Shown: positions 23,698 to 53,588 of the stretch, piece by piece
How positions within the stretch are numbered: the stretch's first letter is position 1
How the letters are laid out: each line of letters starts with the position of its first letter
Made by a program: the position numbers and the translations under genes
Virus record (IMG/VR): IMGVR_UViG_3300010885_054390
Span: 1 to 64,000 of that record
Length of the DNA stretch: 64,000 nt
Reading direction: 5' to 3' (one strand)
Source of the DNA: a virus
Notes under the pieces: model-generated
Seen by the model: only the letters and a program-made list of their open reading frames with translations
Told to the model about the DNA's origin: nothing
Database searches by the model: none

Positions 23698-24258
23698 TTA
23701 ACTGCCTTCGGCAGGCTTAACCGACGTTTCGATTGCTATCGAATCCCGAATCTGATTCGGATTCGACTTCAAATTGGGATTCGAAGCGAGGAAAGCGACA
23801 TTGATAATCGGACGATTATCACCTTTAACTTGCTGTGCTTCAATACCATAGACTGACTTCGCCACACTATGAACCTTGTTCATAGCGTTAAAAGTAGTGT
23901 CGACCTCTGAAACTGATACCATTGAACTCTGTTCAATAGCAACGAGGCCTCGGTCAACCTGTTTCTGCACCCTTTCAAGGTATCGTTTCTGTAAATTAGT
24001 AACATTGTCTTCGACAATCGACTGCTGTATTGCAATGGCTCTATTGGCTGTTTGCTCTAGTATTGCATCTCTCTCCTCGAACCATTTACCTCTTGATACC
24101 CAAGAGTTAATGGTTCCCAACTTGAGACCATACTTCTCTGCCAACTGATTGTTAGTGAGTCTAGTGGTCATGTAAGCAATCTTGACCTGCTCTTTAACGT
24201 TCTTCCCAACTCTATAACGTTTCCCGTTATTAGAGTTGCTCTGCTCTGTTAAGCTCAT
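23698..24258 (-). CDS. terS: Terminase small subunit-like protein
   Basis: 186 aa from the ATG at 24258. An N-terminal helix-turn-helix (MTTRLTNNQLAEKYGLKLG, followed by INSWVSRGKWFEERD; about residues 28-58) matches the DNA-binding domain of phage small terminases that recognise the packaging start site. A helical oligomerisation-like middle follows (QQSIVEDNVTNLQKRYLERV) and a low-complexity tail. Small terminases are usually next to terL, but here the gene stands alone about 11 kb away on the minus strand, flanked by hairpin-rich DNA. A transcriptional regulator with the same HTH is the alternative. Confidence 0.65.
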   Translation of the reverse strand: MSLTEQSNSNNGKRYRVGKNVKEQVKIAYMTTRLTNNQLAEKYGLKLGTINSWVSRGKWFEERDAILEQTANRAIAIQQSIVEDNVTNLQKRYLERVQKQVDRGLVAIEQSSMVSVSEVDTTFNAMNKVHSVAKSVYGIEAQQVKGDNRPIINVAFLASNPNLKSNPNQIRDSIAIETSVKPAEGS

Positions 24259-24327
24259 CTTCAATCTATGCTACAAAGAGTTAGAACAATAGCAATACCG
24301 AAGCACGTTGAATCTTACGCGAGCCTT

Positions 24328-24599: not shown

Positions 24600-24630
24600 G
24601 TGTCACCGCCGTTTAACCGACCTCAACCTA
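24600..24630 (+). promoter_or_regulatory. 31-bp bipartite element, copy 1
   Basis: GTGTCACCG, 13 bases including GTTTAACC, then CTCAACCTA. A small CACC-TTC-GGTG hairpin abuts it upstream. It lies 66 bp before the 32-aa gene at 24697. Fixed 31-bp length is shared with copies 2-6. Probable phage-specific promoter. Confidence 0.6.
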
Positions 24631-25278: not shown

Positions 25279-25309
25279 GTGTCACCGAAAGTTTAAACGG
25301 CTCAACCTA
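25279..25309 (+). promoter_or_regulatory. 31-bp bipartite element, copy 2
   Basis: GTGTCACCGAAA, GTTTAAACGG, CTCAACCTA. Preceded directly by the hairpin CACCCC-ATA-GGGGTG. Only 6 bases separate it from the ATG at 25316, which has no ribosome site, implying a leaderless or very short leader. Confidence 0.65.
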
Positions 25310-25315
25310 ATTACC

Positions 25316-25483
25316 ATGAACAACGAAACCGCAACCATCCTCGACGAACTCGAGCAACGAGTCTCTGATATGTATGTCAGCGACTTGTCTACTGGCGAGA
25401 ACAAAGGTGCATCACCCTTGGACTACGTCCGCTGGGCAATCGAGGAGATCGAAGCAAACCACCAACCCATCCTGAAAGGATAA
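25316..25483 (+). CDS. Small acidic protein, 55 aa
   Basis: Begins MNNETATILDELEQRVSDMY; C-terminus DYVRWAIEEIEANHQPILKG is helical. Lies between element copy 2 and the SprT-like gene, 7 bp apart, so it is probably co-transcribed with the metallopeptidase. No family recognised. Confidence 0.6.
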   Translation: MNNETATILDELEQRVSDMYVSDLSTGENKGASPLDYVRWAIEEIEANHQPILKG

Positions 25484-25490
25484 AAAAACC

Positions 25491-26078
25491 ATGAACAAAA
25501 CCCGCGAACAATGGCTACAGAAGGCAGTCGAAGCACTCGACTCGAAGCTCTTCAAGCCTAAAAACCTCTCGCTACCCAAACGCATCCGAGTATCCGTCGG
25601 ATGGCCAGGGGGGCGTGCAGACAGGAGCAAAGCTGTCGGTCAACACTGGAAGCCAACTGCCTCCTCTGACAACCACCACGAAATCTTCATCTCTCCGAAG
25701 ATCGCCTCGAACGGACTGGAAGTCCTGTCCACCTTGGCACATGAGCTTGTCCATGCACAAGTCTTCGCCGAGTACCCCGACGAAGGCCACGGGAAGAACT
25801 TTCGCCGAGTGGCCAACGCCATCGGCCTCGAAGGCGACCCGAAGGTGTGTGGTGCAGGTGAAAAGCTCCGCAACGGCTTACTCAAGGACTTCATCCTTCT
25901 CGAAGGCGATTTCCCCTCGGGAAGCATCGACTTCTCACAGCGGAAGAAGGACAGCACTCGTCTCATCAAGGCAGAGTGTAAGGCTTGCGGATTCGTAATC
26001 CGTACGTCCCGCAAGTGGATTGAGGACATCGGCCTGCCCATCTGCAAGTGTGGCGGAGATTTCCACGAACCCAAATAA
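25491..26078 (+). CDS. SprT-like zinc metallopeptidase
   Basis: 195 aa. HELVH (about residues 83-87) is the HExxH catalytic zinc site, with a downstream GHGKNFRRVA helix (about 98-107) supplying the third ligand region. A C-terminal zinc ribbon has CKACG (about 163-167) and CKCGG (about 184-188). This is the SprT/Spartan architecture, a family linked to cleavage of DNA-protein crosslinks in eukaryotes. Phage substrates are unknown. It is followed by a CobS-like ATPase and VWA-like partner, suggesting a joint remodelling/proteolysis function. Confidence 0.85.
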   Translation: MNKTREQWLQKAVEALDSKLFKPKNLSLPKRIRVSVGWPGGRADRSKAVGQHWKPTASSDNHHEIFISPKIASNGLEVLSTLAHELVHAQVFAEYPDEGHGKNFRRVANAIGLEGDPKVCGAGEKLRNGLLKDFILLEGDFPSGSIDFSQRKKDSTRLIKAECKACGFVIRTSRKWIEDIGLPICKCGGDFHEPK

Positions 26079-26090
26079 CCACCCTAAAGG

Positions 26091-26121
26091 GTGTCACCGA
26101 AAGTTTAAACGACTCAACCTA
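26091..26121 (+). promoter_or_regulatory. 31-bp bipartite element, copy 3
   Basis: GTGTCACCGAAA, GTTTAAACGA, CTCAACCTA, directly preceded by CACCC-TAAA-GGGTG just after the SprT-like stop. It lies 29 bp before the ATPase ATG and would give that gene its own transcript. Confidence 0.65.
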
Positions 26122-26150
26122 ATTGGCCAACCGAAAGGAAAACAACGACC

Positions 26151-27239
26151 ATGAACCCATACAACCTCACACTCAACCAACTTCGCCAAGAATGTGCGAA
26201 GCGTGGCATCGGCTCCCCCAAATGGAGAGCCAACGCCATCGTCGACGAGCTCCGCTCTGCCCTGCAAACCGCAGATCGTGATACTGGCGACTACACACCC
26301 ACCCCAACCCCACAGGAGGACACACCATTGAAGACCGAAACCCCCACACCTACACCTAGCGGTGACGCATTGGCAAGCACACTGCTCCAAGCCCTGCTCC
26401 CTCACCTTCCACAGCAAGGCATCCAAGAGGCTCGAGTACGGCAAATCGTCGCCGAGATCATCGAAGCACGAAGCCCGAGGGAGGTTCGAGTTGAGCTCCC
26501 CTCTGGTGAGAAGGTTGACGTTGGAATTGTGCATCAATCGTTTAACCGCATCCTGCAAGCTGTCTCCGCAAACATCAGCGGTGGCATCCTGCTCGTCGGC
26601 GGTGCTGGTGCAGGGAAGACAACGACCTGCCACAAGGTGGCCGACGCCTTGAAGCTCCCCTTCCGCACCATCAGTGTGTGTAAGCAAACCACCCTCTCTC
26701 ACCTCGTCGGCTTTATCAACGTAAGCGGGGAGTATGTAAGCACACCCTTCCGTGAAGCCTACGAAAAAGGTGGAGTATTCCTCCTCGACGAGTTCGACGC
26801 TGGCAATGAGAACGTGGTGCTGGCTCTCAATTCAGCCCTTGCCAACGGCATCTGCGAGTTCCCCGACAAGCAGATCGAGCGACACAAGGACTTCCGTTGC
26901 CTTGCATCGGCCAACACCTACGGCACTGGTGCAACCCTGCAATTCGTCGGTAGGAATAAGCTCGACGGAGCAACCCTCGACCGCTTCGTGGTCATCGAGC
27001 ATGACTACGACTCGAAGCTCGAGATCGCCCTTTGCGGGAATGACAAGTGGGCAGAGCGTGTGGTGAGCATCCGCAAGTCCATCGACAAGCTGGGCATCCG
27101 CCACATCGTCAGCCCTCGGGCATCCATCAACGGAGCCAAGCTACTCGCCATCGGTTGGAAGCAGGCCGAGGTGGAGCAGGCGGTCATCTGGAAGGGCTTG
27201 GACAAGAGCGAGGTACAGCGAGTGCTGGCCACCCTCTAA
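26151..27239 (+). CDS. CobS/MoxR-type AAA+ ATPase with SAP-like N-terminus
   Basis: 362 aa. The N-terminal 40 residues (LTLNQLRQECAKRGIGSPKW) resemble a SAP/HeH DNA-binding helix pair. After a Pro/Thr linker, the AAA+ core has Walker A GGAGAGKTTT (about 150-159), Walker B GGVFLLDEFDAG (about 207-218), sensor 1 ASANTYGTG (about 252-260) and LDRFVV (about 276-281). CobS/MoxR ATPases normally act as chaperone motors with a VWA-domain partner; the next gene fills that role. Probably a protein-remodelling motor, possibly DNA-targeted through the SAP-like region. Confidence 0.85.
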   Translation: MNPYNLTLNQLRQECAKRGIGSPKWRANAIVDELRSALQTADRDTGDYTPTPTPQEDTPLKTETPTPTPSGDALASTLLQALLPHLPQQGIQEARVRQIVAEIIEARSPREVRVELPSGEKVDVGIVHQSFNRILQAVSANISGGILLVGGAGAGKTTTCHKVADALKLPFRTISVCKQTTLSHLVGFINVSGEYVSTPFREAYEKGGVFLLDEFDAGNENVVLALNSALANGICEFPDKQIERHKDFRCLASANTYGTGATLQFVGRNKLDGATLDRFVVIEHDYDSKLEIALCGNDKWAERVVSIRKSIDKLGIRHIVSPRASINGAKLLAIGWKQAEVEQAVIWKGLDKSEVQRVLATL

Positions 27240-27241
27240 AG

Positions 27242-27272
27242 AGGTCACCCATCCACAACCTACGTCAACCTA
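27242..27272 (+). promoter_or_regulatory. 31-bp bipartite element, copy 4 (divergent)
   Basis: AGGTCACCC, variable middle, GTCAACCTA; same 31-bp span but three core mismatches. Follows the hairpin CCTC-TAAA-GAGG. Lies 28 bp before the VWA-like gene and AAAGGAC ribosome site. Confidence 0.5.
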
Positions 27273-27300
27273 ACTGCCAACCGAAAGGACAAACCTACCC

Positions 27301-28194
27301 ATGACAACCAAACGTTCCAACGCCTCGGACTCCTCCAAGGCAACACAAGTATTCCCGCTAACCTTCGAGAAGTTCCTCGAGATTGCGGGAGACCCCGACC
27401 CCGACCACAACAGCCGTTACAAGTCTGCGAACCAACAGCCCACGTCCAAGACATGGGCAGACGGAGTCGACTACTTCGAGAGCGTAAGGCGTCTCAAGAT
27501 CGGCTGGCCAGAGGGCGTGAAGAAAGCCCGTGAGTTAAGCTCGAAGCTCTATTCACGTTTAAACGCCGAGTACAGCTTCCAACGTGACATCAAGTTCGAC
27601 ACGACTGGTGACTGGTTCGACATCGGACGAGTGCTTGAAGGTGAGCCCGATTGCTGGGGTTCCGAGATCGAGCTTGACGACGAGTTCTCCAATGACAAGC
27701 GTGGGAAGATCGTTCGAGTGGCAGTGAATGTCGGGGCGTCCTGCTCCTATAGCTCGGAGCAAATCCTCCAACGGGGAGTGTATGCCCTCGCCATCGTCGA
27801 CCTACTCGAACGACTGGGCAAGAGCGTCGAGCTCACGGCCTCATGCAAGGTGGAGAAGAACGGCAAAATCTGGGGCTGGGAATTGCCCTTGAAGCAAGCG
27901 GGAGAAGAGCTCTCCCTTGACCGAGTGGCACACATCCTCGGTAGCCCTGCTGGCTTTCGCCGAAGCTGGTTCCGAGTCATCGAGCACACTGACTACCCCG
28001 ATTGCGGAAGCGGTCTCGGATGCCCTACAGACTGGACGGAGAGCGAGCTCAAGCAACGTCAGGTGGACATCTACATCGGAGCGTTGTTCTCGGGGAACAC
28101 CCCTTGGCAGGGCAAGACGGACACGAAGTTCATCATCGAGCAACTGGCCAAGGCGGGCATCAAGTTAGAGCGTGAGGAGGATGCGAAGGCATAA
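27301..28194 (+). CDS. VWA-like partner of the CobS-type ATPase (DUF7192-like)
   Basis: 297 aa. The central segment VRVAVNVGASCSYSSEQI (about residues 139-156) followed by ALAIVDLLERLGKSVELTA (about 163-181) has the beta-alpha-beta layout of a von Willebrand A domain. The metal-site DxSxS is altered to NVGAS, so it may be a degenerate VWA fold. I associate it with phage DUF7192 proteins. MoxR/CobS ATPases work with VWA partners, so this protein probably recruits or presents substrates to the ATPase upstream. The family call is moderate; the pairing is the main support. Confidence 0.6.
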   Translation: MTTKRSNASDSSKATQVFPLTFEKFLEIAGDPDPDHNSRYKSANQQPTSKTWADGVDYFESVRRLKIGWPEGVKKARELSSKLYSRLNAEYSFQRDIKFDTTGDWFDIGRVLEGEPDCWGSEIELDDEFSNDKRGKIVRVAVNVGASCSYSSEQILQRGVYALAIVDLLERLGKSVELTASCKVEKNGKIWGWELPLKQAGEELSLDRVAHILGSPAGFRRSWFRVIEHTDYPDCGSGLGCPTDWTESELKQRQVDIYIGALFSGNTPWQGKTDTKFIIEQLAKAGIKLEREEDAKA

Positions 28195-28221
28195 CGGATT
28201 TGGGCAGTGGGTACTGGTGCT

Positions 28222-28242
28222 CGTGAGGTTCGAATCCTCACG
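28222..28242 (+). other. Isolated tRNA T-arm-like hairpin
   Basis: CGTGAGG-TTCGAAT-CCTCACG is a perfect 7-bp stem with a canonical TTCGAAT T-loop, followed by GGCATCGG. No complete tRNA can be folded upstream (only GATGC at 28180-28184 could pair with GCATC at 28243-28247). It may be a tRNA 3'-end relic, an old attachment site, or a processing signal in the 88-bp gap. Confidence 0.4.
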
Positions 28243-28282
28243 GCATCGGTTAAACGAAACACGAAACATAGGAGCACGAACA

Positions 28283-41880: not shown

Positions 41881-42204
41881 ATGAAATGGTCGGTACTAAA
41901 ACAAAAGCTGGCAAAACTGTCCCAAATTGCGTCCCAAAAGGCAAATCTAGAAAATCACGAGGGCTCGGTAAAAGATCTAAATAAAGCAATCGAAGACGAG
42001 AATATCGTCGAAATACCCGAACAACTTTACGTATTCTTCCTTATGGAAAGGAAGTATCTTTTGGCTAACCTTGACGCCATGCAAAAAGTTATAGCCGCAG
42101 CCAAAAATTACAGCTCGGATGAGGTCGGGGAGTGTTGCTTTAAGGACTATATTCAGTCTTTAGATGAGCTTTACAAGTTTTATACCGAAGTCGGACTTCT
42201 CTAA
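41881..42204 (+). CDS. Hypothetical helical protein, 107 aa
   Basis: Helical and charged (VLKQKLAKLSQIASQKANLE; KDYIQSLDELYKFYTEVGLL). It is an isolated plus-strand gene between two leftward units. Its stop overlaps the stop of the giant polyvalent gene, leaving no space for a terminator between convergent transcripts. No family recognised. Confidence 0.55.
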   Translation: MKWSVLKQKLAKLSQIASQKANLENHEGSVKDLNKAIEDENIVEIPEQLYVFFLMERKYLLANLDAMQKVIAAAKNYSSDEVGECCFKDYIQSLDELYKFYTEVGLL

Positions 42205-45200
42205 TTCTTCTGCCTGCTTAGCTCTTCATTGTAAGCCTTGCTTACGCCCATAATAATCTCTTTTTGCCTGTCTTTTAGAGCTTTGATTTCGGCGGAGCGA
42301 TCATCGCCACCCTCCTCGGATTGCTTCTGAATAGCTTTGAGTTGTTGCTTAACCTTCTGAAGCTGGCCGCTAGCGCTTCTAACAATCGGATAAACGTTAA
42401 TTTCCGCAGCGTATTTTTCTGACGCTTTTTGCGCTCCTTCGGTATCGCCCCGTCCACCGAGTAGTTTCTGCTCTTCAATGGCAGTGTAGGCAGCCTGTCG
42501 AATTGCCGAAAATCTTTCGTAGTCAGCGTAGCTTGGTTGTTCGCCTACGAACCTGCGGAGGATCGGGATGTCGTTTAACCCAAGGCTCTCATTCGGATTG
42601 AGAATTTTCTCCGGTAGCGAAGCCACACGAAGGATGGTCGATCCAACTGCACCGGTCAGATAGCCCGCAAAGTAGTCCATATATTCTGGCGAGAACGACA
42701 AAGCTCCCTCGCGAACTTCATTGCCGCCGGAGATTTCGTTCATAAACTTTGTTAAGTGTTTAAACGCAGGAGTTACACTGTTGAAGTATTTCTCTGAAGC
42801 CGGCGTGGGTGAGGCGTCGCCGGGGAAGTCGGAGGGCGTGATTGGCCTGCCCGCCCAGTCTTGGTTTAAATAAATATCTGTCAAAGGCTGGAAAACTGTG
42901 GGCGTAAGTGATGATAGTAGGTTTCTAGCCCCGCCGATGGGGTTAAAGCTCTCCATAAGAGTTTCGGCCATTCGAACTGCCGTATTCCCGTTTGTCTTCT
43001 TACCTAGCACCAAGTCGGACAGAATGTTTCCAGTGTGCCAAAAAGTGTTGTACCCGTAAGGCAACGGGAGGGATACGTACCTTCCCTTGGTTCCGGGGAG
43101 CATAATAATGATGTTTGTACGCTTTTTAAACTCGGGAACCTTTGACCAAAAGCTTTCGCCATCCTCATCATCTCCACCCGAAGCCTCGTTAAACATACTG
43201 GCCAACAACCCAGAGGTCACCGCCCCAACTGCTAACTTCCGAACCTTCGGAGAGGTTGCCACCGACTGCACCAGTCTGGCCGAGCCCTGTAGGGAGGCAT
43301 TAAAGAACAAATAGATGCTGTTAAACACCGGCCCAGCCTCGCCCTTCTTCGTAAAGTTTACGGTAGCGTTTCTGGCAATCGCAGCGGCCTGCTGATCGGT
43401 GGCTCCCAATTCTCTTGCGTGATGAAAGACGGCTAAACGAGTGGCATTTTCTACGCCCCCGTTCATTTTTTCAATCCAATTAGATGATGCCTTTAGAAAC
43501 TTTTGAGCTGAGTTGGGGTCTTTCCCGTCCACAATCTTTTGAATGTCTTTTATCTGTGTTTCAATGTCCCCGGTAACCCATCCAATTAGCTTTCCGCCGG
43601 CCTTCAAGAAAGCTCTGTAGCTGTCGCCCCACTCATCTTGAGTAGAGTTGGGGTTAAATTCTTCCGCCAGCGAAGTCCGAAGCGGTTTTAGCGAAAGCAC
43701 TGACTTCACTACCCTACCGGATAAATCTTTATACTGTTCCGCAGATAAGTTGAAGGCTGCGGTCTGTAAGTCTCGGATCGGATTAGTAAAGAAGAACTCC
43801 GGGCTAAGGCCAGTCCGGGTAATTGAAAGCAAACGGTTAAACGTTGCCAAGGCCCCCACTACTTTGCTCGACCAATTCTCGCTATTGATGCCCCCGTTTT
43901 TAAGATTTCGAACAAGATCGGGGTTTTTAATCCGGATAAACTTGGTCTCCCCGTTAATTTTTGTAGCAAAAATATCGTCTTGGTTCATCCAAGTTGGGTC
44001 AATAAAGTCTCTGGCGTATTGGAAGGCCTCTCCTGATTCTGGATCTTTTCTGGTTACTAGCCTCCGAACTGTCTGGGGCTTCGCAATCTCCCATAGATCG
44101 CTGTCGGGGTATGCCTGCACCAACTCATAAAGGGCATTTCCGAGAACGTTCTTTTCCGCTCTGACGATACCCGCTGCGGCACTATTCATTGCATAGGCTA
44201 GAATATTTTCTGCCCTGCTCAGACGACCTAAGGTCGGCTTAACTTCTTCACCACGGATATTAAATCCTTTTCCAGTGGCTTGCCCGCTAGTAGCGATTTC
44301 TTCCGCCGTGGCTCCGGGGATTCCCTTTAGCGGAACATAATCTTTATACCTGTCGGTAAGAGCCTCGAATAAGGGTCGGGAGATCAATCCTTCGTCTAAA
44401 CGTTGTCGGAGGGCCCCGTCAATCATTTGCCGGATCATCTGGCGGGACTCCTCAAGCTGAGTGGCTCTATCGTCAGCCTTGTACTTGGCGATCAAATCGT
44501 CTGCCTCTGCGTCGGTCATTCCCGAGCCTCTTTCGTGAAGTTGTTCTATGTATTCTTTGTTCTTCTTGGCCTTGTTGTATTTGGCGAGCTCTTCTGGTGT
44601 TGCGTCCTCTCCGGGGAAATAGGGCTCTGGGGGCATGGGATTGATAAGTCGGATACGTGCGTTCCGCTCTTTCGCGTGCAGGGCGTACATAAACTCCTCA
44701 ATCTCGGCTGTCGAGATTCCCGAGCTCCTAAGCTTTTGAAGAATGGGCTCGACTATGTTTTCGTTGAAGTCAGTTAGGCGTGCTCCGACCTTTCCGTGGT
44801 AGAGCTCCTCAAGTTGATAGGCGTTTAAACTGTCTGGCAGCGGCTCGCCAATTTGTTTCTCAATGGATTCTTGGATCTTCTTTAAGTCAATAAACCTATC
44901 TTGCCAAAATCTTCTCAGGCCGAGGATTTTGTCTGCATTCGTCACATACTTCCCGAGAAGCTCTCTAGCAAATCTCGGCAAGAAAGGAACTTTGCTTTCG
45001 TCAAAGAACACTTTGTTTTCCGGTTGGTACTTGAATCCACCAATAGGGGCCGCGCCTAAAATGTCGGGCGAAGAAGTGAAGTCCGAGTTCAGTCCATTTG
45101 CGAGCTTTAGCTGGTCTGCATTGAAAACGACAAACCTTGAGTTCTGTGCTTTATCATCCGTATTGGCTTCTCCTAGTTCAATGGAGTCAAAGCCAAAACC

Positions 45201-48200
45201 TTTGAGCACCCCTTGGAAAAATGTATTCGCGAAGGCTGTGGAGTCTGCCAAGTGCGGGTAGCTTTGCTCCTCAATCGCATCGGCTGTAGTTTTAATTCTT
45301 TCGGAAACTTCAGATAGCTTCATTCCAGTTTGATCTGCAATAGCCTTCGAAAGCATTGGGACAATCGCCTCTTTAATGAATACCGAGCCATCAAAGACGT
45401 GCTCTGGAACCGAAGCCATTCGCAACGGATTCTCCGCCCTTACAAAAACAGGCGTTTTCATTCTTGGCTTGCCGTCTTTTTGATAGGCCTGCGCTACGGA
45501 GAATTGAACGTCATCTGCCCTGACCTGATCTCGGCTATATGTCAACGCCCCGCCCGGGGTGCTTAGAGTATTAGGGGCTCTAATATCGGAGGTTGCTACG
45601 TAGTATTGAACTGCGGGGCTTCCGTCTGGTCGAGTCACCTTGCTGTTCCCGAACCAGTCTTTAAATTCTTTGAGCTTTGTAACTAAGTTTAAAACTTCGG
45701 AATCGGGAGTTGCCTTCAAAAAGTAAGGTAGGCGACTCGCAATAAAATCTCTTGACGCTGGGGAAATCGACGGGAAGACCTCATGGGTCAAGACAGCCGT
45801 AAGAGCTGGCACCGAATCTCCTTTAAAAATTGTACGTAGGCGGTCGAAGGTGCCCCTATCTAACCCCTCTTCTTGGAAGTCAGCGACAACTTTCTCCATT
45901 GTATTGTTGAAGGCCTCGGCTGAATTCCTGAACTTCTCAATTTGTTTAAACAGATCGTAGTTCCTGCGGCGGAAGTCGGGGTTGTCCAATAAGCCAACAC
46001 GATAGTTTCCGTTTTCGTCTATTTGGTCGTCAGCCTCTAAATATGATTCTTCGATTCGGCGTACGAAAGAATCAATAAAAGCATTCTTACGGATAGCTTT
46101 TTTATAATCAAAGGCCTTCCCGTTAAGGAAAACCGGTTTCTTTGCGTAGCCAACAACCTTTGCCAACTGCATCTGCTGTTCGTCTGTCGGCTCTTTCGGC
46201 CCAGTAACCTTCAGGCCAGCGTCAGAGACCTCAACCTGAAGCCAGTTTTTCTTAAAGTTAGAAAGGTCTTTCTTGGAGAACAGCTCTGTTTCGGAAATTG
46301 AATCGAAGTTTCCGCCCTCAATTAAAGCTCCCTTTGCGGTCATCAGACCGCTCACCGGGTTCTCTGGGTTAAACGTTGTGGCTCCAATTTCAGTAAGTTC
46401 TATTTCGCTCGGCTCAATTGGAGTAATCCTCGCAGCATGAAGCCTGTCTCCGTAAACAATCTCTTTTGCGTCTTCAAAGGTAGCTCCGTTTGCCGTCTGC
46501 AAGAACCTCACTAAATCCTCCGACGGAACATACTTCGCAACAAAAGATGCTGCGTCTTTCAGGATTTCAGGGGAACCATTAAAGCGATAGGCTTCCGCCA
46601 GCTTTTTGTAGGCATCATCAAACAAGACTCTTTCGGCTGTTCCGTTTTTGGGGACTTGCGGTAGCCTGCCGCTCGCAAATTTATTCGCGTCTAAACGATT
46701 TGCGGCCATGTAGCCTTCGTCCGGACTTAGCTTTGCTGTCTCTACATAGGTAAACTTTCCATTGCTCTCCATCAAAGCCAAATTACCGCCAACTCCGGGC
46801 ATCATAACAAATGCCTCGCCGGCCTTGGTACGCATTAACGGAACCTTGAACATCGAAGCAGTCGCGGCGAGAACTCGATCTTTGTTCTCTGAAGAGGCGT
46901 TAATTGCCCTTAGCAAATTGGTCTGAAAGCTTTCTTTCGTAGAAGCGCTAAAGCTCCCCAATAGGTCGTTCCAAAAATCAAGGACTGCCGTATTATTTTC
47001 AAAGACGCTAAAATCAGATATTACATTTTGAAGAGTCCTATTTTTTTCGTTTACGTCAGTCCAATAGTTTTCACTCTCCATCTTTCTAGCAAAGGACATC
47101 TTCTGGAAACCCTTCATGCGTCGCAATGGGAAATTAAATCCCGCTACCGACCTCAAAAGCTGTTGGGATGGAGATGCGGCCCCAATGGTTGTATCTTGCT
47201 TGGGAGCTTCGACTTCCCAAGGAGCAGGTTCGTTTCTTCGGATCTCCGCTAGTCTCTTCTGTTCGGCTAAATACTTTTCATCGTCTTTCTTTACACCGGA
47301 GTAATTCAATTTCTTTTCCGGGTACATCATCTCCGGAAGAAGCTCAATTTCTTGTGCAGTCATACCCGGAAGTCGCTTGCCAGTAATCGGGTCGTACTCA
47401 GGTGCGCTACGCTTTGCGTAGGTTTTCGCCATAATAACAAGCTCAACTTCGGGTATTCTTTGCCACTTCGTAAATTCTTCCGGAAGAAGAGCTACTTTTT
47501 GCTTTGCGTACGGGGCCGTTCCTTTTTCCGATTTAATATCTGAGTTGAGCAAGGAGTATCTGTGCGGGCCAAAGTTAAACCAACTATTCTGCCCCCTTGT
47601 TTCCGTTGTCAAAGCCCTCTGTGCATTGTCGGAAAACATCTGAGAATGCTTGATCCAAGCATTTTCTTCCCCTCGGGGCCCGAAGCCGTAACCCTCTGCG
47701 GCGTGACCAAATAGGTCGTGAATTGCACGCAGTTTCTCGTTTAAACTTACTCCGTTTTCGTCTCGCTTTCCGAGGTAGGGGTGAGATTCTCCGCCAGTAA
47801 AATAGAACAACCGATTGTTGGAGCGAACATCCTTCCGCATTTCGGAAGAAGTTTCGTAGGGCTGACCTTCTTTTGTCCAAGGCTCAAAACGCATCCCCAT
47901 CTTTTCTGTGGCAAACTTCCATTGCTCTTCAATCTCAGAAGCTAAAGATTCGTAGGCTTTTTTAACTTCTTCGGAAGGATCAAAGTCTGGAAGGTTTTCG
48001 TAGGCTTCCGCAATCTTAGTTGCCTCCTCTTTTCTGACTGGAACCCAAATGTGATCCACCATAATCGGGCCACGGCGGGATGCCTCTTTGGCCTGTCTAA
48101 GTAGTCTGGCGCTGGATTGCGCCTTGCTCCAACCCCTTACGCGCCGATTGGCTTGCGGCGAGGCCGATTCTCCAACTGATCCTCCTCCGATAGCGGCCCG

Positions 48201-51200
48201 ACTGACTCCGAGATGATAAGCCGCGAGCCCTTTGGTGAAATCGTCGGGGATGTCTTGTAGCCGATTCCCAAGTTGCTCAAGAAGTCCGGAGTAATCTTGT
48301 TGCTCGATGACTTGGATTTGTCCGAGCTCACTACGGGCTTCTTTGATGAGACCTTTGTAGGCTTCGAAGAACTTAGTGATTCTGTCTTGAGTTTGTTCAT
48401 TTTGTTGTACTCCTAAGTAGAGGGTATTAGAGGCGGTGTCAATTCCGAACCCGTCTTCGAAGCCAAGCTTTCTAGCGTTGGCCACAAACTTGTTTAAACC
48501 GGATCGGTCTTTAAAGACAATCTCGTGCTCTACATCTGTGGGGTTAGTTACGTTAGTGTCGAAAATATAGACCGCCCTTTGAACTTCGGGGGTAGAAAAC
48601 GGATTGGAGGCAAGCAAGGCCGCAAGGGGCTTGGGATCGCCCTCCGGAAGAGTGAATACAACTGACGGCTCCAATTGTAGCCCAACGTCTGGATTGTCCC
48701 ATCCACCAACAGTATTTGTTGGGTCAGTTATGTTGTAGCCGAAGATCGAAGCAAGTTTCATTAGGTTCTTGCCACGCTTGGCAAACCTAGTTTCCGCCAA
48801 ATTGTCTGCATTCTTCAGGCTCTTAAAGTTCCTATCGCGCATTGCAGCGACGGCGACCTTGGCGGCCCCAAAGATGTCCATCTCTCCGACGACATTCGAG
48901 ATCTGGCCGGGAGTAAGCGGTTTAAACAGCGTTTTGCTTTTTGCGGGCCACCTATCGTGAACTACGCCAAGCTCTAAGGAAATTGCTTTTTGAATCAATA
49001 GATCGATTTGGTCTCTACCGGGCTTGCCCTCCAAGAGAATATTGTTTCCGTCATTCGTCATGCGGAGCCATCCACGGCTAAACATTTCATTGTTCACATT
49101 CTTGCCGAGGCTGTATCCGTATTTCTGCTGAAGGTCTTTATAAATTTCAGGCTCGTTCTCTTGGAGCCACATAATCATTTCGCCGGCGTGACTATCCATA
49201 GAATCCATTCCCTCGTAGCGAATTGCGGAGCTTTCTACTGGAATAATCTCGCCCTTTGGCCCCATCCAATAAGGATCGAAGTCGGGAAGTTTATCAATGG
49301 CTTTTGTGTTTGGCTCAGGGGTGATCTTAGCTGCGCCGAGAACGTCTCCCAAGCGATAGCGCTTCAGGCCAAGTTTCTTTAAAATTCCGGGGCTGGCATT
49401 TGCAAAACGAAGTGTTCCGATTTCTTTTATCATCGAAGGCCGAAGCGTTTCCGACATCCACTTTTCAACTCGTTCCCTAGCCCTTTGCCTTCTTTTCTTT
49501 TCCCCCGAAGAAAGATTCCTAGTTCTGGTAGCATCCTTTTCGGACTCAAAGTACCCTGTGATCTCAATCTTCTGTGAGTAGGGATTAAACTTTGCCTGTA
49601 GGTTTCCACGAAAGACGTTGTCGAAGATTTCTTTTTCGGCTCCCGTAAAAGGAGCTTCCGCAATAATCTTGTTTAGCTTTTGCCCTACGCTTTCTTTGCT
49701 TTCGCGACTAATTTTATCAAGGATCTCCGGCTCAACAGAAAGCACCGCTTGTCCATTTTCATCGAAGGCTGCGTCCGTATACTCCGGAACTTCTTGCGAT
49801 TCGATTGTATCTGGTACCTGCTCCCCCAGCCTATCGCCCCAGTTTGCCGTTACAGCCGTTTTAGCCTGCCCTGTTTCAGGATTTATGCTCGCTACCTTTT
49901 GGCTTTCATCCATTGAGTCAGTAAACGTCGGGGCATTGGGGTCTTCATCTGGGAGTACGGTGGCTTGGTCTTCGACGGAAGCGTCTATTTGAGGGGTTAC
50001 GTCTTCCTCCATTTGGGGGTCGCTCTGCTCGTCAACTTGCTGTTGAATCGGCGTTTCGGTTTTATCTGACGGGCCTTTTTTCAGCTTTTGCTCTAATTCA
50101 GTGCTGATTAAACGCGAAAGTTTGTTCTTGATGGAGCGGAACACGGCTGTTTTTTGTTCCTCCTTACTGCCATTCTCTGGGAAATTTGTCTCTCGGGATG
50201 CGGTCATCAAATAGATAAGAGCTTCGTTTGCAACTTCGGAAGGGGTCTTAATGCCCATTCTCTCTAGCTCAAACTTGAACACCGGATTATTTCGAATGTA
50301 TCCCGCAAAATACTTAACGGTTTCATTCACCATCTCCGGGTCATTAATGAGCGAGTCCAAGATCTTGTCGGCGTTCGGGTTTACATCCTCACCCATCTTG
50401 CTGTTTACGGTTACATCAATAGAATTGAAGTATTGCCCCTGTGCCGCTTCCTGACCTCTCGGCGTCTCTCTTGTAACGGGAGCCGCGCCTAATGTCTCTT
50501 CATCCTCTGGAATAGACAAGGTTGGCTCGTCGGGCATTTGAGCTTTTTGTTCTTGAGGCTTTGATTTACCAACAAAAGCCTCGAAGGATGGAATAGGTAC
50601 TTCGTCACCTTCTTTTGCCTTCACAATACTGTCACGAATCATCTGCCGGTACTCTGTTAGCTTCTGCGAGGCCTGCACCGGATCGCCAAGTATCTTTTTT
50701 GCAACTAAATTGCGGATTGTAGTCTCTCGTTTTTGAAGAGTTGCTGAGTCTTTCTTGCGGTCTTTCCCATCCCGACGCCTACCAGAATCATAGGCATCCG
50801 CGCTATTTTGATCTGGGAATACCAACCTAACGCTCCCGTACTTTCCGCGAGCCTGAAAGCGTTTAAGCGAAGAAGGGTTTACCTTTGCCGGAGTTTCTTT
50901 TTTTGCTGGCTTTGGAACTGGTGTCGCTTTTGCCTTCGGAGCTGGCGCCTTAATCTTTTCGGCTTCTATTTCTTTCCGAATGTTGTCCCTAACAACGTTT
51001 AAAGCATCGAGCTGACGGTATCTGTCTTGCTCCAATTCCACTTCGTCAGGAACTGGGGACGCTTCAATCTCGGCAATCTTGTTTGAGGTTTCGTCAAACT
51101 TTGCTTGAAGCGTTGCAAGCCTTGAGGGCTGTTGCGGCTCTAATGTAGCAGGGACAGCTTCTGAACCTTGCGTAGAAGCGTCTGGTTGAAGGGTCTCGAG

Positions 51201-53588
51201 AGGAGTGGCAGTTTCTTGAGGTTGGCCCTCTCCTTTTGTTTCGACGGGCGCGACTGCGGCTGTAGCTGTTGTTGCTGCTTTTTTTGAGCTTTTCTGGAAA
51301 ATTTTCTCAGCTTTTTGTTTTTCATCTAGCAAACTATTAATAGCCTTTAAATGCTCCTTTACAACAGGCGAGTCTTTTGAGAGCCCGCGAACCGCACGTT
51401 GCCAGTAATCCTTCGCTGAAAGAAGGGACTCCTCCAAGATTCCGGCCTTCTGTTTGTCCATGTCTTTTCTGTTTTGCCAAGTATCTTCTGTGGTGACTCC
51501 AATCTTTTTCCTTTGAATCAACTGGCGAACAAACTCGCTGTAAAGATTGTTGCCGCTAAGATTCTCGTCACCGTATTGAGCGCGGGTGTCGCGGATTTCT
51601 TTTTCTGTCATCTGCGAGGCACCCTTTTCACCAAACTCTTTTCTCCACTGGCTAAAGGAAGTTTTATTTGGGTCTACCTCTCCGCGATTGATGGCCTGCT
51701 GATAAAGGTTTGCCCTTGCCTTTGTCATGTCTGTGTCGTGAATCAACTCTTCTGCCATTGCAGATATTAGATACGTTTGTCGCCTTTTTTCGGCTAGCTG
51801 TGCGTTACCACCCTTTTCTCCCTTAACTTTTTGGTCAATGCCTGAAAGCTCTTGCTTGAGAAGATCTAGGTTTATTTGAACTGTATTTTCTTCATTGGTA
51901 TCAATAGAGAAAGCCCTGTTATTGTCAGAAAACTTAATTGTGATCGGCTTGTCTGGGTTTGCTCCGAGCACATTGTAAGCTTCCTTCATTGCCATCCCGG
52001 TAAGCCTTTTTGCGCGGTTAAACGCGGACTCTTTTTGGGTGTTGTCTAGGCCGCTATGTAGGCTGTCAAAAGACTCCCTATCAAAAGTAAATGGGTTGTT
52101 GGCTTGTTCCTGCTCATCCCCCATTAGCTTAGTCATCAAGTTACTTTGATTCCGGAAATCTTGCATGGCCAAAGCCATTGATGTCTTGGGCGCGAAGTTG
52201 CGAAGCCTTTCAGCGACTAAGTCCGCCCTAGAAGATCCTCTCGCTGCTGCGATAACCGGTGCTCCACCTCCGACCTCCAAAGCGCCCTCCATAGCGATTG
52301 CATTTGGGTCTGTAATGTCTCCGTAGGCCAACTGCTGGCTAAGCGCCTCTCCACCCATTCCGCCCGTAACCTCAGTTAAAAATAAACCGCCAGTTTCAGC
52401 TACCTTCCGAAGCCTGCTTACCCCTTTTAGGCCAGCCTTTACAGCGGTGCTCTCGAAGGCGGAGGATAGCCCAAAGGTGGCAAGAGCCGTTAGCCCGTCA
52501 ACAACGCCCACCGGAACGCCCTTTTCATTTGCGGCCTGCTTAACCTTGCCCATCAGCTCTTCGTTCTGCATTGCTGCGACAAGTTGCTCGGGGTCGTTTA
52601 CGTTAATCCCGTCAAAGCCGGGTGTGGGATCTTTTAAAGGCTCCTTGCCATTCTTTACCCGCTCAATGTTCTTAGCCCGAATATCCTTTTGAATCTCGCC
52701 ACTCAAAAGCCCCATTAACGTCCCCGAATATTCCAGCTCGTAGGAGCTCTTTCCTGTAGCGGTGGCTACGCCCGTCCTGAAGCCCTGCTTTGCGCCTTGA
52801 ATGGCCCCCGGAATCGCGCCCACACCGTCAAAGGCGACTCCCACCCCAGCACCAATTCCCGCCCCAGCAAGGGTCTGCCCCACAATGGCGTCTGCATTAG
52901 TGGCAATCTTTGGGGTAAGCATCGAGAGCTGCTCGACCATAGCCCCAGCAAAATTGGGTAGAACCGACTTCGACAAAAAGATGTCCCCAACTGTTTCCTT
53001 TGGCGGGGCCAGTTTTGAGATCTCTTCGTTTAAACGCTTAACATCTGAGGCGGCTTTTTCCATGCCGCTTTGATCTTTTTCAGCCGCAGCTTTTTCCAAG
53101 GCTTCGGTGGCCTCGGACAATTGGTACTGCTTAAATCCGTAGGTTCCGCGCTCAAAAAGTTCTGGGCCATTAAAAACGTATTTCTCCAAGACGTTTCTGT
53201 CGGGCCTGTCCAACTGGAAGGCCTTCTCAATCTGTTTAAACTGATCGTTAAGTTGTTTTCTGCCTGTTGCCGTTTGGAGGGCTCCCGTTGGCTCAACGGC
53301 TTGAAGAGTTTTTCCGCGCCAAGTGTCAAAGAGTTCTTTTTTCTTTTCGAAGTCAGCCTTATCAAAGTTTGAGGCTACCTGATAATCGTTCCAGCTTTGA
53401 GGCCCGTTTTGTTGAGCCGGCTCTGTCGCAACCTGTTCTGCTGGGACCTCTTGCGAGGCTTCTTCCGCTGTAGCTAGCGATGAAAGTTTTTGATTTATCT
53501 CCGGTGTAAGCTTGTCGAGCTCTTCTTGAGTTATGTCTTCGGGGAGGTCAAGGTTCACTTGCCCCCTACCGGGGATGTCTACTAACAT
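42201..53588 (-). CDS. Giant polyvalent internal-virion protein, 3795 aa
   Basis: Single uninterrupted frame. Approximate residues: 232-275 Gly/Ala-rich membrane-active stretch; 612 EELIHD, possibly a zincin-like site; 1453-1466 conserved SSAIRYEG...DSHAGE block; 1950-1970 HDLFGH...GFGPRGEENAW; 2660-2825 an ADP-ribosyltransferase-like PolyVal/MuF-C segment ending FVVFNADQ; 2850-3085 a helical block ending YVPLKG; 3255-3640 a large polyvalent-associated domain (LPD38-like) beginning SPEFFFTNPIRDLQTAAFN. Such proteins are packed in the capsid and injected with DNA; the enzymatic parts modify or protect at entry. [DE]xx[LIF]GAA motifs recur at block boundaries. Domain names other than the ART-like and LPD38-like calls are tentative. 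Confidence 0.8.
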   Translation of the reverse strand: MLVDIPGRGQVNLDLPEDITQEELDKLTPEINQKLSSLATAEEASQEVPAEQVATEPAQQNGPQSWNDYQVASNFDKADFEKKKELFDTWRGKTLQAVEPTGALQTATGRKQLNDQFKQIEKAFQLDRPDRNVLEKYVFNGPELFERGTYGFKQYQLSEATEALEKAAAEKDQSGMEKAASDVKRLNEEISKLAPPKETVGDIFLSKSVLPNFAGAMVEQLSMLTPKIATNADAIVGQTLAGAGIGAGVGVAFDGVGAIPGAIQGAKQGFRTGVATATGKSSYELEYSGTLMGLLSGEIQKDIRAKNIERVKNGKEPLKDPTPGFDGINVNDPEQLVAAMQNEELMGKVKQAANEKGVPVGVVDGLTALATFGLSSAFESTAVKAGLKGVSRLRKVAETGGLFLTEVTGGMGGEALSQQLAYGDITDPNAIAMEGALEVGGGAPVIAAARGSSRADLVAERLRNFAPKTSMALAMQDFRNQSNLMTKLMGDEQEQANNPFTFDRESFDSLHSGLDNTQKESAFNRAKRLTGMAMKEAYNVLGANPDKPITIKFSDNNRAFSIDTNEENTVQINLDLLKQELSGIDQKVKGEKGGNAQLAEKRRQTYLISAMAEELIHDTDMTKARANLYQQAINRGEVDPNKTSFSQWRKEFGEKGASQMTEKEIRDTRAQYGDENLSGNNLYSEFVRQLIQRKKIGVTTEDTWQNRKDMDKQKAGILEESLLSAKDYWQRAVRGLSKDSPVVKEHLKAINSLLDEKQKAEKIFQKSSKKAATTATAAVAPVETKGEGQPQETATPLETLQPDASTQGSEAVPATLEPQQPSRLATLQAKFDETSNKIAEIEASPVPDEVELEQDRYRQLDALNVVRDNIRKEIEAEKIKAPAPKAKATPVPKPAKKETPAKVNPSSLKRFQARGKYGSVRLVFPDQNSADAYDSGRRRDGKDRKKDSATLQKRETTIRNLVAKKILGDPVQASQKLTEYRQMIRDSIVKAKEGDEVPIPSFEAFVGKSKPQEQKAQMPDEPTLSIPEDEETLGAAPVTRETPRGQEAAQGQYFNSIDVTVNSKMGEDVNPNADKILDSLINDPEMVNETVKYFAGYIRNNPVFKFELERMGIKTPSEVANEALIYLMTASRETNFPENGSKEEQKTAVFRSIKNKLSRLISTELEQKLKKGPSDKTETPIQQQVDEQSDPQMEEDVTPQIDASVEDQATVLPDEDPNAPTFTDSMDESQKVASINPETGQAKTAVTANWGDRLGEQVPDTIESQEVPEYTDAAFDENGQAVLSVEPEILDKISRESKESVGQKLNKIIAEAPFTGAEKEIFDNVFRGNLQAKFNPYSQKIEITGYFESEKDATRTRNLSSGEKKRRQRARERVEKWMSETLRPSMIKEIGTLRFANASPGILKKLGLKRYRLGDVLGAAKITPEPNTKAIDKLPDFDPYWMGPKGEIIPVESSAIRYEGMDSMDSHAGEMIMWLQENEPEIYKDLQQKYGYSLGKNVNNEMFSRGWLRMTNDGNNILLEGKPGRDQIDLLIQKAISLELGVVHDRWPAKSKTLFKPLTPGQISNVVGEMDIFGAAKVAVAAMRDRNFKSLKNADNLAETRFAKRGKNLMKLASIFGYNITDPTNTVGGWDNPDVGLQLEPSVVFTLPEGDPKPLAALLASNPFSTPEVQRAVYIFDTNVTNPTDVEHEIVFKDRSGLNKFVANARKLGFEDGFGIDTASNTLYLGVQQNEQTQDRITKFFEAYKGLIKEARSELGQIQVIEQQDYSGLLEQLGNRLQDIPDDFTKGLAAYHLGVSRAAIGGGSVGESASPQANRRVRGWSKAQSSARLLRQAKEASRRGPIMVDHIWVPVRKEEATKIAEAYENLPDFDPSEEVKKAYESLASEIEEQWKFATEKMGMRFEPWTKEGQPYETSSEMRKDVRSNNRLFYFTGGESHPYLGKRDENGVSLNEKLRAIHDLFGHAAEGYGFGPRGEENAWIKHSQMFSDNAQRALTTETRGQNSWFNFGPHRYSLLNSDIKSEKGTAPYAKQKVALLPEEFTKWQRIPEVELVIMAKTYAKRSAPEYDPITGKRLPGMTAQEIELLPEMMYPEKKLNYSGVKKDDEKYLAEQKRLAEIRRNEPAPWEVEAPKQDTTIGAASPSQQLLRSVAGFNFPLRRMKGFQKMSFARKMESENYWTDVNEKNRTLQNVISDFSVFENNTAVLDFWNDLLGSFSASTKESFQTNLLRAINASSENKDRVLAATASMFKVPLMRTKAGEAFVMMPGVGGNLALMESNGKFTYVETAKLSPDEGYMAANRLDANKFASGRLPQVPKNGTAERVLFDDAYKKLAEAYRFNGSPEILKDAASFVAKYVPSEDLVRFLQTANGATFEDAKEIVYGDRLHAARITPIEPSEIELTEIGATTFNPENPVSGLMTAKGALIEGGNFDSISETELFSKKDLSNFKKNWLQVEVSDAGLKVTGPKEPTDEQQMQLAKVVGYAKKPVFLNGKAFDYKKAIRKNAFIDSFVRRIEESYLEADDQIDENGNYRVGLLDNPDFRRRNYDLFKQIEKFRNSAEAFNNTMEKVVADFQEEGLDRGTFDRLRTIFKGDSVPALTAVLTHEVFPSISPASRDFIASRLPYFLKATPDSEVLNLVTKLKEFKDWFGNSKVTRPDGSPAVQYYVATSDIRAPNTLSTPGGALTYSRDQVRADDVQFSVAQAYQKDGKPRMKTPVFVRAENPLRMASVPEHVFDGSVFIKEAIVPMLSKAIADQTGMKLSEVSERIKTTADAIEEQSYPHLADSTAFANTFFQGVLKGFGFDSIELGEANTDDKAQNSRFVVFNADQLKLANGLNSDFTSSPDILGAAPIGGFKYQPENKVFFDESKVPFLPRFARELLGKYVTNADKILGLRRFWQDRFIDLKKIQESIEKQIGEPLPDSLNAYQLEELYHGKVGARLTDFNENIVEPILQKLRSSGISTAEIEEFMYALHAKERNARIRLINPMPPEPYFPGEDATPEELAKYNKAKKNKEYIEQLHERGSGMTDAEADDLIAKYKADDRATQLEESRQMIRQMIDGALRQRLDEGLISRPLFEALTDRYKDYVPLKGIPGATAEEIATSGQATGKGFNIRGEEVKPTLGRLSRAENILAYAMNSAAAGIVRAEKNVLGNALYELVQAYPDSDLWEIAKPQTVRRLVTRKDPESGEAFQYARDFIDPTWMNQDDIFATKINGETKFIRIKNPDLVRNLKNGGINSENWSSKVVGALATFNRLLSITRTGLSPEFFFTNPIRDLQTAAFNLSAEQYKDLSGRVVKSVLSLKPLRTSLAEEFNPNSTQDEWGDSYRAFLKAGGKLIGWVTGDIETQIKDIQKIVDGKDPNSAQKFLKASSNWIEKMNGGVENATRLAVFHHARELGATDQQAAAIARNATVNFTKKGEAGPVFNSIYLFFNASLQGSARLVQSVATSPKVRKLAVGAVTSGLLASMFNEASGGDDEDGESFWSKVPEFKKRTNIIIMLPGTKGRYVSLPLPYGYNTFWHTGNILSDLVLGKKTNGNTAVRMAETLMESFNPIGGARNLLSSLTPTVFQPLTDIYLNQDWAGRPITPSDFPGDASPTPASEKYFNSVTPAFKHLTKFMNEISGGNEVREGALSFSPEYMDYFAGYLTGAVGSTILRVASLPEKILNPNESLGLNDIPILRRFVGEQPSYADYERFSAIRQAAYTAIEEQKLLGGRGDTEGAQKASEKYAAEINVYPIVRSASGQLQKVKQQLKAIQKQSEEGGDDRSAEIKALKDRQKEIIMGVSKAYNEELSRQKN

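Follow-up and report, generated by a model that had tools for sequence, protein, structure and literature searches.

A SprT-ATPase-DUF7192 gene set in a viral genome

The window (the whole 64,000-nt stretch of viral DNA analysed here) contains three consecutive genes, all on the + strand, encoding a SprT-type metallopeptidase, an AAA+ ATPase and a DUF7192 protein. All three open reading frames lie where the sequence-only reading had placed them, separated by gaps of 72 and 61 nt and with AAGGA-type ribosome sites. The features of the locus are as follows:

25281..25309, + strand: promoter-like element before the 55-aa ORF and sprT, both fixed boxes exact
25316..25483, + strand: putative gene from the ORF list, 55 aa, upstream of sprT, starting 6 nt past the element
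25491..26078, + strand: SprT-type zinc metallopeptidase, 195 aa (PF10263, 6.8e-10; phrog_6361, 1.8e-37)
26093..26121, + strand: promoter-like element before the ATPase gene, both fixed boxes exact
26151..27239, + strand: predicted MoxR/CobS-clade AAA+ ATPase, 362 aa (AAA_5, 1.4e-14; phrog_249, 1.2e-54)
27244..27272, + strand: degenerate promoter-like element before the DUF7192 gene, two mismatches in the fixed boxes
27301..28194, + strand: DUF7192 protein, 297 aa, predicted to be VWA-like (PF23822, 5e-25; phrog_1909, 1.2e-24)

The putative promoter, GTCACCG-N13-CTCAACCTA, is present in six copies in the 80-kb record, on the + strand only (starting at 24602, 25281, 26093, 27244, 30696 and 35236). 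For a relaxed form of the pattern, chance predicts 0.31 occurrences in the window; none of the shuffled sequences reached six copies. Between the element preceding the ATPase gene and the ATG, a distance of 29 nt, lies an AAGGA site. Each gene or gene pair had been proposed to carry its own element; the copies before the 55-aa ORF with sprT and before the ATPase gene are exact in the fixed boxes, and the copy before the DUF7192 gene carries the two mismatches. When the two best copies were combined into a 32-bp consensus, IMG/VR contained no exact match to it. PF00940, used to look for a T7-type RNA polymerase that could account for the elements, gave no match here or in the controls and so carries no weight either way. 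The 55-aa ORF had no Pfam or PHROG match, and an Rfam search around the trio yielded only a sub-threshold tRNA-like match.

SprT scored 39.2 bits against PF10263 (cut-off 25.6), a cut-off that several SprTs of related trios do not reach. The zinc motif HELVH (H84, E85, H88) is followed by a third histidine, H100, and by C-terminal cysteine pairs C163/C166 and C185/C187; H84, E85, H88, H100, C163 and C185 are invariant in an alignment of 32 homologues. These are features shared with the SprT/Spartan family, including stand-alone phage ‘SprT-like protease’ genes: PF10263, HExxH with a third histidine and a cysteine-rich C-terminus. The window SprT differs in sharing an operon with a MoxR-VWA pair. 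The AlphaFold2 (AF2) model (pLDDT 86) has a zincin fold, for which the best Foldseek matches were the generic minimal zincins abylysin and jannalysin (E 0.07–0.13), with SPRTN absent among the best 50. In the earlier description of a Spartan-like zinc metallopeptidase, the label ‘Spartan’ thus derives from Pfam family and residues.

The Walker A and B motifs, sensor 1 asparagine and arginine finger of the ATPase are intact, and their conservation across 53 homologues is complete or nearly so. The best PDB matches of its profile were Midasin, CobS, CbbQ and NorQ, Midasin being stronger than CobS. Together with the AAA_5 match, these features agree with the CobS/MoxR AAA+ motor proposed earlier and assign the protein, by sequence, to the MoxR/CobS clade. 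The SAP-like N-terminus suggested for it fared worse: the SAP-like helices at residues 5–20 are weak (E = 0.016; 15.3 bits against a Pfam cut-off of 23.9), and N-termini vary freely among relatives. This sub-threshold match is the sole hint of DNA binding within the motor.

The DUF7192 protein is recognised by no VWA model. For its AF2 model (pLDDT 84.9, pTM 0.82), Foldseek ranked the NorD VWA domains of NorQ-NorD (MoxR-VWA) complexes first among solved structures, with low TM-scores of 0.25–0.33, and also gave phage DUF7192 and CobT/VWA proteins as top matches. Alignment of the DUF7192 profile with MIDAS-containing VWAs using hhalign was in register, though not significant by itself, while a sequence-only PDB search gave no matches and hhalign against single VWA or CobT proteins was negative. 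We therefore describe the protein as probably VWA-like on the basis of structure comparison and a non-significant in-register profile alignment, which sits well with the degenerate VWA-like protein of the sequence-only reading. The MIDAS is indeed degenerate: N143, G145 and S147 occupy the expected DxSxS positions, the canonical DxSxS-T-D pattern is absent, and the first position is Asn in 34 and Asp in seven of 64 DUF7192 sequences. MoxR-associated vWAs may lack one or both MIDAS aspartates (PMC7159879), so the motif is optional in the family. The protein has no HExxH motif.

Databases label the ATPase as porphyrin biosynthesis/CobS, and a role for viral CobST in cobalamin synthesis has been proposed (PMC8651126). 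Following these labels, the locus would carry auxiliary metabolic genes, a viral CobS and a CobT-like partner boosting cobalamin synthesis via host CobN. We consider this highly improbable. The ATPase scores 27.6 bits against the NCBIfam CobS equivalog model, far from the cut-off of 558.55, and its profile is closer to Midasin than to CobS; its partner is a DUF7192 protein without the canonical MIDAS (DxSxS) rather than CobT, and CobT_C was not found in the record. CobN was present in none of 14 records (the window record, 12 related viruses and one bacterial genome with the pair), some of which may be fragments, the phage itself having no assigned host. Finally, cobalt insertion offers no role for an operon-encoded protease. 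The cobalt-chelatase annotation of the ATPase is not supported by these sequence comparisons.

Recurrence of the trio and a second SprT-MoxR-VWA operon

Single-sequence scans of IMG/VR with the window ATPase or DUF7192 protein returned no matches, and alignments were needed as queries; an alignment of DUF7192 only was too diverged for scanning. In the window, all three proteins are divergent. The DUF7192 gene lies directly downstream of the ATPase gene in 75 of 80 IMG/VR loci and the remaining five end at a contig edge, so the pairing holds without exception in every locus that is not cut short. In phages of Rhizobium, Mycobacterium, Tunturiibacter, Staphylococcus, Listeria, Acinetobacter and Sinorhizobium, and in crAss-like phages, DUF7192 adjoins the ATPase or lies within a few genes of it. 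SprT is less constant: it is found directly upstream of the ATPase in 35 of 75 loci with upstream room for it (full trio in 34) and is absent from about half of the ATPase-DUF7192 loci, where no consistent upstream gene replaces it. On the ATPase tree, the presence of SprT requires six changes, at least three of them forced by well-supported branches, against a shuffled mean of 25.6. The SprTs of the trios fall into at least two lineages, in a tree that does not place the window SprT. Since many of the viral loci are near-identical copies, raw locus counts overstate independence. The SprT-ATPase-DUF7192 trio is a real, recurrent unit.

A search based on SprT revealed a second operon, encoding SprT, a MoxR protein of approximately 505 aa, a zincin/CobT-N protein and a VWA protein with an intact MIDAS. 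Here SprT is directly upstream of MoxR in 76 of 77 loci, with the zincin/CobT-N gene downstream in 79 of 79 and the MIDAS-VWA gene in 66 of 66. Across the two MoxR families, SprT and the ATPase are usually spaced by 11–134 nt. The association of SprT with two different MoxR-VWA pairs argues for a joint function.

It is nevertheless conceivable, if rather unlikely, that SprT is functionally independent, the unit being the ATPase-DUF7192 pair only and SprT owing its place to the layout of the phage nonstructural module. Many cultured actinophages and proteobacterial phages carry a solitary SprT gene close to genes for a polymerase, an exonuclease, SSB or a methylase, and 66 of 79 loci found by SprT similarity have no MoxR neighbour. 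Set against this is its position directly upstream of both MoxR families (76 of 77 and 35 of 75 loci), on several branches. The trio with SprT was absent from all cultured phage records inspected. Cultured phages by themselves had suggested no link between SprT and the pair, a view that the IMG/VR loci reversed.

The suggestion that the three genes together form one phage system can thus be refined. The ATPase-DUF7192 pair does not come apart where the contig continues, whereas SprT does occur independently, joining the pair in about half of relatives and the second operon almost without exception.

A candidate protein-remodelling and protein-cutting machine

The recurrence of the same set in fixed order in many other uncultivated viruses suggests that the three genes probably encode one phage machine that remodels and cuts proteins. 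By analogy with its family, the MoxR-clade AAA+ protein would form a hexameric motor, and the DUF7192 protein would act as a VWA-like adaptor that docks on the ring and picks the target. With the usual aspartate missing from its MIDAS, DUF7192 would have to grip the target in another way than CbbO, NorD and midasin do. ATP hydrolysis could then twist or pull the adaptor-bound target from its complex, as NorQ-NorD and midasin suggest, and the SprT zincin would either cleave the same, loosened target or be recruited to it by the complex. The physical complex of the three proteins and this order of events are what we infer. Proteins bound to the phage DNA while it is replicated or packaged are the most likely candidate substrates. 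The host defence complexes, nucleoid proteins or crosslinks named in the sequence-only reading, and packaging or virion proteins, may also be considered as targets.

The gene neighbourhood raises another possible role, in virion assembly or packaging, with the MoxR-VWA pair as a chaperone for terminase, portal, head or tail and SprT as a maturation protease. Of the 23 SprT-bearing loci whose upstream sequence extends for 4 kb or more, 21 have a divergent large-terminase gene within 4 kb; terminase small subunits from at least two PHROG groups are among the neighbours, and the window itself has a TerS-like HTH gene at a distance of 1.2 kb from the trio. Virion assembly has also been proposed for jumbo-phage MoxR and metallopeptidase-vWA fusions (PMC7824862), and a similar proposal exists for the tail proteins of Acidianus two-tailed virus. 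However, the terminase adjacency comes mostly from one lineage, from which the TerL profile was itself built; the window TerL is 12 kb away, and the trio is on the strand opposite to the structural block. SprT-less MoxR-VWA pairs, moreover, often adjoin DNA polymerase, clamp, primase or recombinase genes. We regard a virion role as unlikely, though less so than an independent SprT.

A fuller version of the remodelling machine is offered more tentatively: in tailed phages, the MoxR-VWA motor may use ATP to loosen or unfold its chosen target, probably a protein trapped on phage DNA, for a separate SprT zincin to cut, in a logic that would parallel the eukaryotic p97-plus-SPRTN route for DNA-protein crosslinks; the arrangement may have evolved with two different VWA adaptors; and many phage ‘cobS/cobT’ auxiliary metabolic genes may be parts of such remodellers.

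Relation to known systems

In the MoxR-vWA chaperones of the CGN/chelatase side (NorQ-NorD, CbbQ-CbbO and CobS-CobT, and also midasin), as in the trio, a MoxR-clade AAA+ protein has a VWA-fold partner (predicted here) encoded directly downstream; the trio differs from these systems in that DUF7192 lacks the DxSxS aspartate and in its separate SprT protease. The closest published idea concerns jumbo phages, in which a metallopeptidase-vWA fusion lies beside MoxR and remodelling with peptidolysis has been proposed (PMC7824862). In the one T4-like cyanophage checked, a ‘peptidase/CobT’ adjoining CobS combines HEVGH and DWSGS in one chain. Both systems share with the trio a phage-borne MoxR, a VWA and a zincin, but there zincin and VWA are joined in one protein, whereas in the window SprT is separate and the predicted VWA is DUF7192; the cyanophage VWA also keeps an intact MIDAS motif, in contrast to the degenerate one of the window protein. 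These independent fusions link a metallopeptidase with MoxR-VWA. The p618-p892 proteins of Acidianus two-tailed virus, cited as MoxR-VWA chaperones in PMC7824862, PMC9964418 and PMC4660213, likewise pair a virus-encoded MoxR AAA+ protein with a VWA partner, but in an archaeal virus with extracellular tail growth and, in those citing accounts, with no peptidase reported, whereas the window trio has SprT.

In T4-like cyanophages, genes resembling cobS and cobT belong to the core set, and in phages such genes are commonly interpreted as auxiliary metabolic genes for vitamin B12. The recurrence of SprT, the absence of CobN from the 14 records and the degenerate MIDAS of DUF7192 favour a different reading, in which protein remodelling is linked to proteolysis. 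The uncharacterised family DUF7192 gains a first (predicted) fold and a first partner; the SprT-MoxR-zincin-VWA operon, nearly invariant in 80 loci, offers a system for testing the mechanism, and the long-standing cobS/cobT annotation becomes testable.

Genes of the trio and their two-box element

The virus record that holds the window (80,254 bp) encodes an SprT-type protease, a MoxR/CobS-clade AAA+ ATPase and a DUF7192 protein in the following order:

Trio genes and associated features
before sprT, + strand: 55-aa ORF
25491-26078, + strand: SprT-type zincin, 195 aa (PF10263, above the Pfam cut-off)
26151-27239, + strand: AAA+ ATPase, 362 aa (AAA_5; PHROG 249)
27301-28194, + strand: DUF7192 protein, 297 aa (DUF7192/PHROG 1909, function unknown)
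24602, 25281, 26093, 27244, 30696 and 35236, + strand: copies of the two-box element

These positions and domain matches confirm that the three genes are consecutive, as the sequence-only reading had it. The SAP-like N-terminus that it gave the ATPase is a weak match, short of the threshold (E 0.016), and different phages have ATPases with unrelated N-termini. In the SprT alignment, HExxH and the third histidine are intact in 32/32 proteases.

The element, GTCACCG-N13-CTCAACCTA, has six copies in the 80-kb record, all on the + strand and confined to 24.6-35.3 kb. Copies precede the sprT pair and the ATPase gene, with a degenerate one before DUF7192. Their placement, immediately 5' of ribosome sites, marks them as putative promoters; the 32-bp best form had no exact match in IMG/VR.

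Directly 3' of the DUF7192 stop codon lies a tRNA T-arm-like hairpin, GTGAGGTTCGAATCCTCAC (28210-28247, + strand), perhaps a tRNA remnant or an attachment-site-like relic; ARAGORN did not call it a tRNA, and Rfam gave only a sub-threshold match to mascRNA. An HTH protein near the trio (23698-24264, - strand) resembles terminase small subunits (phrog_509, 9e-6). Within the structural block, a 3795-aa ORF (42201-53588, - strand) matches, in its C-terminal 900 residues, giant phage proteins to which no function is assigned (phrog_14770, 1e-170).

An obligate pair and its SprT partner

Scanning IMG/VR with an alignment-based query yielded 80 ATPase loci, with DUF7192 directly 3' in 75 and a contig end within about 250 nt in the remaining five; the pairing is obligate. 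Annotated phages of Rhizobium, Mycobacterium (cluster L), Tunturiibacter, Staphylococcus, Listeria, Acinetobacter and Sinorhizobium and a crAss-like phage carry the pair, mostly directly adjacent, and the pair also occurs in a genome of Halpernia and in two MAGs of Planctomycetota. Mycobacterium phage JoeDirt has two DUF7192 genes (locus L004, 1180-2052 and 5007-5849), and cluster L phages encode paralogues gp130, adjoining cobS, and gp123, approximately 3 kb away. The DUF7192 proteins of Rhizobium phages P106B (L002, 6204-7382) and RHph_X2_24 (L003, 6180-7325) have an N-terminal extension of approximately 90 aa, possibly the DUF5710 match seen in 3/64 aligned proteins.

SprT joins this set far above chance expectation. 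Scored with an SprT profile, it directly precedes the ATPase in 35 of the 75 loci with upstream room, and the full trio recurs in the window's order in 34, the kind of conservation that the sequence-only reading had proposed as a check; these counts are not independent, because many loci are near copies of one another. On the ATPase tree the SprT label falls on several branches with six changes, at least three of them forced (shuffled mean 25.6), and SprTs of trio loci belong to at least two lineages. The converse scan, started from SprT, gave 79 viral loci: two with the pair, 11 with a different operon containing a second MoxR-VWA, and 66 with SprT alone. It also stood alone in the cultured phages inspected, and stand-alone genes frequently neighbour those for DNA polymerase, exonuclease, SSB or methylase. 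Independent occurrence, which would have spoken against a unit, thus applies to SprT but not to the pair, which stays together in all 75 IMG/VR loci whose contig continues.

The second operon encodes SprT, a MoxR ATPase (approx. 460-510 aa; AAA_5 and CbbQ_C), a zincin protein (approx. 370 aa; HELGH...LEDPRIE) and a VWA protein (approx. 265 aa), with a perfect DCSGS MIDAS in most.

Second operon in uncultivated viruses (viral locus handles)
L170, 4986-9047; also L129, L147, L154, L168, L171-173, L175 and L186-265 (across these loci, MoxR ATPase about 505 aa and VWA protein with intact MIDAS)

It is near-invariant in these viruses: among 80 loci found with its ATPase, SprT is directly upstream in 76/77, and the zincin/CobT-N and VWA proteins are downstream in 79/79 and 66/66, respectively. 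SprT therefore accompanies two clearly different MoxR-VWA systems. Together with the obligate pair, this supports the trio as a unit more strongly than the sequence-only reading could have known. A literature search found no paper joining SprT with MoxR-VWA in phages; the nearest published case is the metallopeptidase-vWA fusion adjoining MoxR in jumbo phages (PMC7824862). T4-like cyanophages encode one chain with both HEVGH and DWSGS motifs near cobS.

A predicted, degenerate VWA-like fold in DUF7192

VWA sequence profiles did not detect DUF7192. An AlphaFold2 model from 64 aligned proteins (pLDDT 84.9, pTM 0.82) has a VWA-compatible order of elements: strand 137-143, helix 152-171, hairpin 175-198, helices 206-229 and a strand at 257. 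Foldseek against the PDB ranked four NorD VWA domains from NorQ-NorD complexes at the top (E 5e-4 to 3e-3, probability 0.89-0.99), with vWF A1, the MDN1 MIDAS domain and Ku among later matches, all at low TM-scores (about 0.22-0.33); among viral models, DUF7192 proteins were followed by phage CobT/VWA proteins. The profile comparison with MIDAS-bearing VWAs is non-significant alone yet in register, IVRVAVNVGASCS opposite AVSILIDCSWSMS. As modelled, DUF7192 is VWA-like, and 'degenerate' is apt because the MIDAS aspartate position holds Asn in 34/64 proteins and Asp in just 7/64.

Proposed motor, adaptor and target

PHROG 249 is labelled 'porphyrin biosynthesis', i.e. phage CobS, but the evidence speaks against a part in cobalamin synthesis. 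On the CobS equivalog model the ATPase reached 27.6 bits against a cut-off of 558.55, its profile match to Midasin is far above that to CobS, and its partner is DUF7192, not CobT. CobN was not found in the virus records searched or the Halpernia genome. Viral CobST has been proposed to hijack host CobN (PMC8651126), which may hold for other phages but leaves the protease in the operon unexplained.

For a remodelling motor, NorQ-NorD offers a precedent: a finger of the VWA domain enters the AAA+ hexamer pore, and the hexamer twists and stretches the VWA protein, hence the target (PMC13036017). CbbQ-CbbO uses the MIDAS of its VWA domain to bind the target (PMC4660213); some MoxR-linked VWAs lack MIDAS aspartates (PMC7159879). 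On the pattern of these systems, DUF7192 is expected to act as the phage motor's adaptor for its target and, because its MIDAS is lost, would hold the target by other means; the loosened target would be cut by SprT. The complex, its step order and its target are what we infer. Evidence on the target points in two directions: in 21/23 loci of its main lineage the trio has divergently oriented terminase genes beside it, whereas MoxR-VWA pairs of other phages adjoin replication genes. In that lineage TerS and TerL are both divergent and adjoin the trio. The earlier proposal of stripping DNA-bound proteins or countering host defence is a guess. The second operon may serve better as a model system than the window does.
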